DNA of 53,110 nucleotides, taken from Syntrophaceae bacterium. Its GTDB lineage: Bacteria; Desulfobacterota; Syntrophia; Syntrophales; UBA2185. Numbering within the stretch: position 1 is the first letter of the stretch; each line of letters begins with the position of its first letter. This document shows positions 40,602 to 43,208 of the stretch, one piece after another. The notes beneath the pieces were generated by a model, which saw nothing but the letters and a program-made list of their open reading frames with translations, was not told the origin of the DNA and did not search any database. The DNA is taken from the NCBI GenBank assembly GCA_003153775.1, contig PMBI01000041.1, positions 3,805-56,914 on the forward strand. Direction: 5' to 3'. The position numbers and the translations under genes were made by a program.

Positions 40602-41417
40602 TCAGAATGAGTGTTTCTTTTCGGGAAAGACCCCTGTTCTCACTTCCTCAATATATTGACTGACGGCGTCCTTCATCTGTACATTGAGGTGTGCATATGC
40701 CTTGACAAATTTTGGTATGAATTTGTCAAACATCCCGACCATATCATGAAGTACCAGCACCTGACCGTCACAGTCAACACCGGCACCTATGCCTATTGTG
40801 GGAATTGTGAGGGATTGCGTCACAGCCTTTGCCAGCGCTGCCGGCACACATTCCAATACGATGGAAAATGCCCCGGCTTCTTCAAGGATTTTTGCATCTT
40901 CCATGATTCTCTTGGCTGCCTGTTCCTCTTTTCCCTGAACCTTGTATCCCCCAAACTGATGAACAGATTGCGGCGTGAGGCCGAGGTGTGCGACGACGGG
41001 AATCCCCGCAGAGGCCATTCTTCTGGTGATTCCGGCCACCTCCCTGCCTCCTTCCAGCTTGACTCCCTGGGCGCCTGCTTCTTTAAGGAAACGGCCGGCG
41101 TTATAAAGCGCATCGTCAGGAGATACCTGGTAGGACATGAAGGGCATATCGCCGACGACCATGGCATGTTTCACGGCACGGGACACCGCCTTCGTATGAT
41201 GAATCATCTCATCCATGGTAACGGGGACTGTGCTGTCGTAGCCTAACATTACCATGCCCAACGAATCTCCGACGAGGACGACATCTATCCCTGCTTCGTC
41301 CACAATGAGAGCTGTGGGAAAATCGTAGGCGGTTAACATGCATATTTTTTCATTCTTCTTTTTCATGTCGCGAATCACGGCAGTAGTGATCCTATTCGTG
41401 CTGGTCTGCTTGCTCAT
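40602..41417 (-). CDS. panB: 3-methyl-2-oxobutanoate hydroxymethyltransferase
   Basis: PanB of about 271 residues. The TIM-barrel motifs [36 protein letters not shown] (first 20 residues diagnostic; Asp and Glu bind Mg2+), [21 protein letters not shown]-like AHLGLTPQS and [13 protein letters not shown] are present. It makes ketopantoate from alpha-ketoisovalerate and methylene-tetrahydrofolate, the first committed step to pantothenate and CoA. ATG 41417 is preferred, with GAGG 8 bases upstream; GTG 41426 lies inside that ribosome site. It lies 10 bp after the stop of the DUF2520 gene, which supplies the next step. Confidence 0.95.
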
Positions 41418-41427
41418 GTTATTCACC

Positions 41428-42312
41428 TCACTTAAGTAATTCTTTAATTAGCCGGGCGGTTTCCGGTGACAAAGTCTTCTTCTGCAATCCAAGCTCGCAA
41501 GTTAAGATGCCGAGTGCGCTGTACGCCTGCAAAAGGTGGGGAAGCTTTTGTCGCAAGGCAGCTGCATGTTTTCTTATAGTACCTGCGTCCCCGCGCGCTA
41601 CAGGCCCAGTCAGCGCTTGAACAGTGCCCTTTGACTCGATATTGCCAATGGTACCCATAACAAGGGGCCAGATGGCGCGAATGCTATCCTCTCGGTTCAA
41701 GCCAAGGGATTGATAAATCTCTTCCGCCATATGGATAAGGGTCGCCAAATAGTTTGATGCAATACAGGCTGCGGCATGATAAAGGGGTTTGTCAGCATCG
41801 GAAACGAAGAACGGTATACCGCCGAGATCCCTGACCACTTGTACGGACCAGTTCCTGATCTCATCTCCCGAAGTAATTCCAAATGTGCTGCCGGGAAGGT
41901 TCCTGACAGCGCTCTCTACATCAGCAAAGGACTGCAGCGGATGTATGCACGCGATTTCGGCTCCGGCATCCCGGGCAGATCCAAGAAGATCGAGACCGCC
42001 CGCGCCGCTCATATGGATAACCTTAGCGCCGGGCCTTACGCTTCCTTCCTTCGATATTCGTTCGCATACCTGCGCAATAGCGTCATCCGGGGTTGTTATA
42101 ATAATGCAACTGGCCGTGAGTGCGGCCTCGGAGAAATTCAGATACGGTCTGCCCCCTGTATAGACTATGCCCTGAGACAGGGATGCCTTCGACCTGCCGG
42201 CAGCAGCAACTATCCTGTATCCCGCTTGGCGCAGCAGAAAACCAACCGCCGTACCCACCTTGCCGAGGCCGAGGATGGCAACAGTATCCCCTCTTATTTC
42301 TTGAGTATTCAT
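41428..42312 (-). CDS. Rossmann/DUF2520 protein, probable ketopantoate reductase (PanG-like)
   Basis: NAD(P)-binding protein of 294 residues. The Rossmann motif [18 protein letters not shown] (residues 10-27) starts the N-terminal domain. The DUF2520 half contains [31 protein letters not shown] and a helical C-terminus. Proteins of this type are reported next to pantothenate genes in several bacteria, and I recall a ketopantoate reductase named PanG being assigned to such a family. That link is knowledge plus context, not proof. ATG 42312 has no Shine-Dalgarno. It lies directly downstream of an intrinsic terminator and 2 bases after an open frame that runs through the hairpin, suggesting regulated expression. 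Confidence 0.8.
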
Positions 42313-42322
42313 AATTAAAAGT

Positions 42323-42366
42323 TTATAAAATCAAAAAGGCCTTCCGGATAAACGCCGGAAGGCCTT
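42323..42366 (-). terminator. Intrinsic terminator immediately upstream of the DUF2520-panB operon
   Basis: A perfect 12-bp stem, AAGGCCTTCCGG (42336-42347) with CCGGAAGGCCTT (42355-42366), has a 7-base loop. On the minus strand it is followed by TTTTTGATTTT. It points toward the operon and ends about 11 bases before its first ATG, so it acts as an attenuator or ends a short independent RNA. Confidence 0.85.
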
Positions 42367-42387
42367 AAGATAAAAACACTCTTAGTT

Positions 42388-42413
42388 GACCATTCCGTCT
42401 CGGTCCATTCCGT
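42388..42413. repeat. Tandem 11-bp repeat in the pantothenate leader
   Basis: GACCATTCCGT (42388-42398) and GTCCATTCCGT (42403-42413) on the plus strand, 15 bases apart, one mismatch. Confidence 0.7.
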
Positions 42414-42563
42414 TGCGGATCCAAGCGGACAGCCGCCTATTAGCATAAAGTGTTTCAAACAGTCAATAGAGGAAATTAGCGGGACAGACAGAGTTATTGT
42501 CACCTTGTAATTGCCTGACCCGTCGTATATAAGAACGCTTATGGAATCCGGAGAACGTGTAAG

Positions 42564-43208
42564 ATGAAACATATCGAACTCATGATATTTGATTTGGACG
42601 GGACCCTTGTCAACTCGGGAGGGGACATCGTGGCATCCGTCAATTACACCCTCAAGACTCTGGATATACGAACAAAAAGTCAGGAAGAAATTCTCACTTT
42701 CGTGGGAGATGGCGTCGACAAAATGATCGAAAGGGCCCTCGGGAAAGATTTTCAACATCTGTTCGATCGGGCTATGGAGATCTTTTCGGATTACTATGCA
42801 AGGCACATGCTGGATACGACATGCCTGTGCGATTACGTGATCGAAGTACTCGACCATTTTCACGAGAAGAAGAAATTTATTATCACGAACAAGCGGAAAT
42901 ATTTTACGGTCAAGATGACAGACGCCCTCGGCATCTCAAAATACTTCGAAGAAATTATCGGGGCTGACAGCACAGCATACAAAAAGCCGGATCCCCGCTT
43001 GTTTATTCCTCTTCTTGAAAGGGTTAATGCCGTCTATAATGACACAGTCATGATAGGCGATGGTATAAACGATATAATGCTCGCAAAGAATACAGGCGTG
43101 TTGAGTTGTGCCCTGTTGAACGGGCTTACACGCAGAGATATCCTGCTTGGCCTTGAGCCGGATTACGCGTGTGAAGGACTCCGGGAACTGATTAAGATAT
43201 TTGATTGA
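42564..43208 (+). CDS. HAD-family hydrolase, phosphoglycolate phosphatase-like
   Basis: HAD phosphatase of 214 residues. Motif I is FDLDGTLVNS (nucleophile and acid Asp), followed by a helical cap domain with FVGDGVDKMIERAL as in Gph proteins. Motif II Thr is in IITNKR, motif III Lys in YKKPDPRLF, and motif IV is MIGDGINDI, where the usual second acidic residue reads GDGIND. Gph removes phosphate from 2-phosphoglycolate, but the family is broad. ATG 42564 has GGAG 10 bases upstream. It lies 25 bp before tilS on the same strand. Confidence 0.88.
   Translation: MKHIELMIFDLDGTLVNSGGDIVASVNYTLKTLDIRTKSQEEILTFVGDGVDKMIERALGKDFQHLFDRAMEIFSDYYARHMLDTTCLCDYVIEVLDHFHEKKKFIITNKRKYFTVKMTDALGISKYFEEIIGADSTAYKKPDPRLFIPLLERVNAVYNDTVMIGDGINDIMLAKNTGVLSCALLNGLTRRDILLGLEPDYACEGLRELIKIFD

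Follow-up and report, generated by a model that had tools for sequence, protein, structure and literature searches.

Our analysis of a 53,110-nucleotide (nt) window from a Syntrophaceae bacterium (GCA_003153775.1, contig PMBI01000041.1) indicates that the mRNA of its DUF2520-panB operon very probably begins with an attenuator of the pan type, in which a single hairpin with two bulged adenosines is followed by an intrinsic terminator. The explanation that we favor as a whole, and consider likely, is that this single-pan-hairpin attenuator answers to an end-product signal and is off when bound; the bound-is-off wiring taken by itself is probable, and for the binding partner of the hairpin, a metabolite and a protein stand at about even odds. 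The original prediction, made from the letters of the window, had proposed a pan-like leader with an attenuator in front of these genes, and it is supported by a covariance match and by a conserved, covarying structure in relatives, both of which were found. The two elements at the center of this reading are the following (all coordinates are those of the window):

42395..42428, minus strand: single pan-type hairpin (RF01749, 24.3 bits; hairpin model R2, 48.2 bits; covariation)
42336..42366, minus strand: intrinsic terminator stem-loop with a perfect 12-base-pair (bp) stem (42366-42355/42347-42336)

The pan motif (RF01749; Weinberg et al. 2010) has been described ahead of panB, panC, and panD, the last encoding aspartate decarboxylase; two bulged As are the feature by which it was defined, and most described pan RNAs are tandem (PMC2864571). 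The Rfam search anticipated for this leader did return pan, as the top-scoring match at the locus when all Rfam families were searched at permissive settings, but at 24.3 bits, under the gathering cut-off of 36.2 bits of this two-hairpin model. The hairpin portion of that alignment was excellent. The full alignment (42391-42516), with an upstream "first hairpin," was rejected; its upstream portion fits poorly and coincides with the promoter. In the hairpin, the 5' strand CCGCUUGGAUCC (42428-42417) faces the 3' strand GGACCGAGACGG (42406-42395), and the pairing of CCGCUUGG-A-UCC with GGACCGAG-A-CGG leaves a single bulged A on each strand (A42420 and A42398). R2, a covariance model of the hairpin from whose alignment this genus and most of its family had been left out, gave the window hairpin 48.2 bits (E 2e-11), far beyond chance, and nothing else in the window exceeded 14 bits; because of that exclusion, the match is not circular. 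Since the Rfam scores (24.3 bits here and 24.1 bits before panC) lie below the RF01749 cut-off, we file the window leader as a pan variant and not as a full member of the family. Other sub-threshold Rfam matches at the locus (SpF01, U7, and L10 leader) were set aside as chance or terminator look-alikes.

The tandem arrangement stated for most pan members is not seen here, as the window leader has one hairpin. The near-copies that had been taken for a tandem pan layout are both present, 11 nt each (ACGGAAUGGAC at 42413-42403 and ACGGAAUGGUC at 42398-42388, minus strand), but the layout itself did not hold up: copy 1 covers the apical loop and upper 3' strand, and copy 2 covers the basal 3' strand and tail, so that the repeat falls within one hairpin. 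Relatives have loops of 5-12 nt that differ in sequence and do not preserve copy 1; copy 2 (CGGAANGGUC) is conserved in many DUF2520-panB leaders. The two ACGGAAUGG copies were accordingly rejected as tandem pan units. A second pan hairpin is excluded in the window leader because the promoter abuts the hairpin and leaves no room. The promoter elements are as follows:

42461..42466, minus strand: -35 element TTGACT, read from the sequence
42439..42444, minus strand: -10 element GCTAAT, with a spacer of 16 to the -35 element

The window -10 element ends 16 nt ahead of the GGATC core, and from the position of the promoter, transcription is predicted to start near 42432 (minus strand). Among 73 single-hairpin leaders collected from 60 relatives, the window's two included, a -35 element with 5-6/6 matches to TTGACA stands at the corresponding place in 70, and the -10 element mostly ends 11-19 nt ahead of the core; transcripts of these leaders thus probably start at the hairpin or a few bases before it.

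The distribution of the hairpin ties it to the pantothenate genes. R1, a covariance model that describes the single hairpin, gave exactly two strong matches in the bacterium's own genome (53.4 and 51.7 bits; the next was 15.1), and these two copies precede DUF2520-panB and panC-panD. The panC-panD copy (on C37) lies directly before its operon, also with a terminator, and is the own-genome pan match of similar Rfam score (24.1 bits); a third Rfam match (L003, 17.5 bits) was rejected as lying inside an unrelated open reading frame. The 73 leaders divide into 32 that precede DUF2520(-panB) and 41 that precede panC(-panD), with none elsewhere. Both bulged As are present in 73/73 leaders, though the regular expression used for collection demanded those bases; it fixed several core bases, and invariance there is partly by construction. 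Independent evidence for the bulged As comes from the Rfam alignment and from a gene-selected set. The Rfam pan model had a match at E<=1 in 52/60 related genomes, of which two alone pass the cut-off. Across the phylum, R1 matched 109/247 sampled genomes, and among 30 loci retrieved from these matches, nearly all run into panB or panC. In Firmicutes and Chloroflexota, the hairpin corresponds to the second of two, and leaders there often exceed the Rfam cut-off. Pipelines that use this cut-off would miss nearly all of the single-hairpin leaders described here, which the R1 and R2 models recover.

The hairpin structure is conserved and covarying in relatives. In the RNA-selected set, 93.4% of cells were paired, and 12 cells had changed on both sides. 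A second set was selected by the DUF2520 protein and not by the RNA, yielding 36 R1 matches in 80 named loci; here, 94.9% of cells were paired in an alignment whose fitting to the model favors its pairing result, and 7/12 pairs had changed on both sides, a result equaled by 0/500 shuffles. A divergent pan hairpin in Fuchsiella alkaliacetigena (L164, 1331-1371; CGCUGGGAUCC...GGACUUAGACGG) has a G-U where a nearly invariant U-G wobble otherwise stands.

The terminator, which the original prediction had called very strong, has the perfect 12-bp stem given above and a U-tract, UUUUUGAUUUU (42337-42327, minus strand). It lies between the hairpin and the DUF2520 start codon at 42312; the measured distance from its last U to the ATG is ~14 nt, in place of the ~11 bases first estimated. 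Leader terminators begin 23-73 nt (median, 36) past the GGAC...GAC core. In the switch that we propose, hairpin and terminator would be linked by an antiterminator whose 5' arm overlaps the pan basal helix:

42388..42397, minus strand: proposed antiterminator 5' arm, basal 3' strand plus tail (CGGAAUGGUC), complementary to 42364-42356
42356..42364, minus strand: proposed antiterminator 3' arm (GGCCUUCCG), lying within the terminator 5' arm, from constrained folds and the conserved arm in relatives

RNA polymerase would first produce the pan hairpin. Were the hairpin unheld, the emerging terminator 5' arm GGCCUUCCG would invade the basal helix, with the tail GGAAUGGUC as a foothold, to yield the antiterminator, and transcription would proceed into the genes. 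A signal of vitamin B5 or coenzyme A (CoA) sufficiency would instead bind across the two bulged As and lock the basal helix, so that the terminator could fold and the operon would be turned off. This signal would most likely be an end product such as CoA, pantothenate, or one of its phosphorylated derivatives, with either the RNA itself or an RNA-binding protein as the sensor. The operons behind the two strong copies, DUF2520-panB and panC-panD, jointly cover most steps toward pantothenate. The simplest reading is one end-product signal common to both, with bound-is-off wiring. In constrained folds, a transcript cut off within the terminator loop has nearly equal energies in the pan form and the antiterminator form (-23.2 versus -24.2 kcal/mol), and in the full transcript, the pan hairpin plus terminator is favored (-39.6 versus -27.1 kcal/mol). 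The antiterminator disrupts three basal pairs only, those below the 3' bulged A. It would account for the conserved unpaired GAAGG just 3' of the hairpin, and it predicts exact compensatory mutations.

The same wiring could operate with a different sensor, namely, a pathway-sensing RNA-binding protein that holds the hairpin and its bulged As and thereby blocks the antiterminator. We rate such a protein-dependent attenuator just short of an even chance. The discoverers of pan took its simple, usually tandem structure to suggest a dimeric protein-binding motif (PMC2864571), and the hairpin here is merely ~34 nt long. The collected leaders, however, carry a single hairpin beside the promoter, so a dimer of sites would be unnecessary, and a candidate protein was not identified; the single-hairpin form weakens, without excluding, the dimeric-protein argument drawn from the tandem layout. 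More tentatively, and in our view rather doubtfully, the single ~34-nt hairpin alone may be the complete sensor of pantothenate or CoA status, in which case it would switch by strand exchange of its basal helix with the terminator arm. If true, this hairpin would be among the smallest metabolite-sensing switches, and either the tandem form of other phyla would have been elaborated later or the single form would have arisen by reduction. The original prediction had described the pan ligand as unknown, and no paper naming a ligand or mechanism for pan was found in the literature searched (mostly without subscription journals). The compact form, with its promoter-adjacent start and a terminator 23-73 nt downstream, offers a minimal construct for finding what pan senses.

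The proposed antiterminator has to be weighed against coincidence: a constitutive terminator, or a partial attenuator, might stand next to an unrelated conserved hairpin, with the complementarity of tail and terminator arising by chance. We consider this unlikely. A terminator was detected automatically behind the hairpin in 71/73 leaders, and the sequence of the terminator 5' arms, usually under little constraint, is conserved here and matches that of the tail, with CCYYY in the terminator arm of 100/117 distinct leaders versus 61/385 control terminators. Across the same 117 leaders, own pairing averaged -15.4 kcal/mol versus -10.2 kcal/mol with 385 unrelated terminator-like hairpins and was stronger than the median of the controls in 110. 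With the hairpin 5' strand masked, 69/71 leaders form an antiterminator of 6 bp or more. In leaders of the panC type, nearly all of the 3' strand GAGACGGAAGG finds its complement in the terminator arm CCUCCCGUCUC. The leader's own tail and arm also outperformed arms swapped among leaders of one operon type, whether DUF2520-panB (12/5000) or panC (6/5000), in tests that take no account of relatedness between leaders, and this difference within both operon types again argues against chance. Compared with dinucleotide shuffles, the own tail and arm gave a mean z of -1.81, with control regions at 0.19 (hairpin 5' strand) and 0.0 (spacer).

Several results weigh against the antiterminator and, in part, in favor of coincidence. 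The window leader's own tail/terminator complementarity is unexceptional (shuffle p 0.16), and 19% of unrelated terminators pair equally well with the window tail. Own versus swapped pairing was not significant in the distant named set (1828/10000). In most leaders, thermodynamics favors the hairpin form by a few kcal/mol, under a masking that penalizes the alternative; antitermination must therefore be at least partly kinetic. The sequence comparisons thus point to an antiterminator in aggregate and are not significant for the window leader alone.

Two further mechanisms are far less probable. Leader-peptide attenuation, in which a ribosome on the short frame AUG GAC CGA GAC GGA AUG GUC AAC UAA would control the terminator, can appeal to the overlap of this 8-codon frame (MDRDGMVN) with the hairpin and is very improbable, given that the frame is not conserved (relatives in the family such as L015 have AUG GAC UGA), that a recognizable ribosome site was not found ahead of the frame, and that RNA pairing, not codons, governs conservation. 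Translational control, with a ribosome-binding site masked by the hairpin or terminator and transcription not stopped, draws on the resemblance of the conserved GGAAGG-like tail to a Shine-Dalgarno sequence and is just as hard to credit, since in most leaders the start codon follows the tail only after ~60-100 nt, with a U-tract terminator between.

The window leader resembles described pan RNAs in preceding pathway genes (DUF2520-panB, and panC-panD on C37) and in its bulged As. It differs in being one hairpin directly behind a promoter, with a score below 36.2 bits, and in the terminator/antiterminator wiring proposed here; the motif paragraph of PMC2864571 describes none. Transcriptome papers on Bacillus and Paenibacillus list the pan motif, without a mechanism. 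Terminator-controlling riboswitches include metabolite-responsive OFF attenuators. The window leader is like these in having an aptamer-like 5' domain, a proposed antiterminator, and an intrinsic terminator placed ahead of an operon of biosynthetic genes, and unlike them in that its aptamer-like domain is a single ~34-nt hairpin whose ligand is only hypothesized. Tandem pan leaders before DUF2520 operons in Firmicutes and Chloroflexota (for example, L124, L138, L140, L139, and L148) share the second hairpin, the kind of gene, and the following terminator; their first hairpin, of the GGGUGGUAUC...GAACCRCACC type, is absent from the window leader. While the pan motif and its association with panB, panC, and panD were already known (PMC2864571), what is new is a widespread single-hairpin form under the Rfam cut-off, coupled to an attenuator, for which we offer a testable antiterminator proposal.

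Both forms occur in one relative (G043), in which a tandem leader (L005, 1501-1720; 40.7 bits, over the Rfam cut-off) precedes a separate panB-like gene and a single-hairpin leader (L034) precedes DUF2520-panB; a match of the tail (CAGGGUAG) to the terminator arm (CUAUCCUG) is seen in the tandem leader as well. Four leaders from one family (L089, L099, L101, and L102) carry a conserved ~60-nt insert about 20-80 nt past the pan hairpin and ahead of the terminator, which looks like an additional hairpin.

The genes behind the window leader are as follows:

41428..42312, minus strand: DUF2520/Rossmann-like protein gene (PF10728, 119 bits, 1e-34; PF10727, 58 bits)
40602..41426, minus strand: panB, ketopantoate hydroxymethyltransferase (PF02548, 404 bits, 3e-121; TIGR00222, over cut-off)

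These matches bear out the earlier assignment of the genes as DUF2520-panB. The upstream neighbor, a HAD-family phosphatase (42564-43208, plus strand), is divergent, and the DUF2520-panB leader therefore needs its own promoter. A recognizable Shine-Dalgarno sequence was not found at the DUF2520 start codon (window 42312-42340). From its gene context, the DUF2520 protein may be a ketopantoate reductase, and no NCBIfam equivalog gives it a name; a role as the sole such enzyme is unsupported, as two ApbA/PanE-type genes (PF02558) are present in the same genome. Among named relatives, the nearest is a Syntrophaceae bacterium whose DUF2520 protein is 88% identical, and the probable deltaproteobacterium first proposed as the source was right in the old sense of that name.

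Several Chloroflexota operons (Dehalococcoidia; L148, L159, L165, and L168) have an extra gene, placed after the tandem pan leader and ahead of DUF2520, panD, and panB. The extra gene of L148 (485-1492) belongs to the Peptidase_S58 family (PF03576, 171 bits), and those of the other three begin similarly, which suggests an additional enzyme of the vitamin B5 pathway, perhaps one for the supply of beta-alanine.
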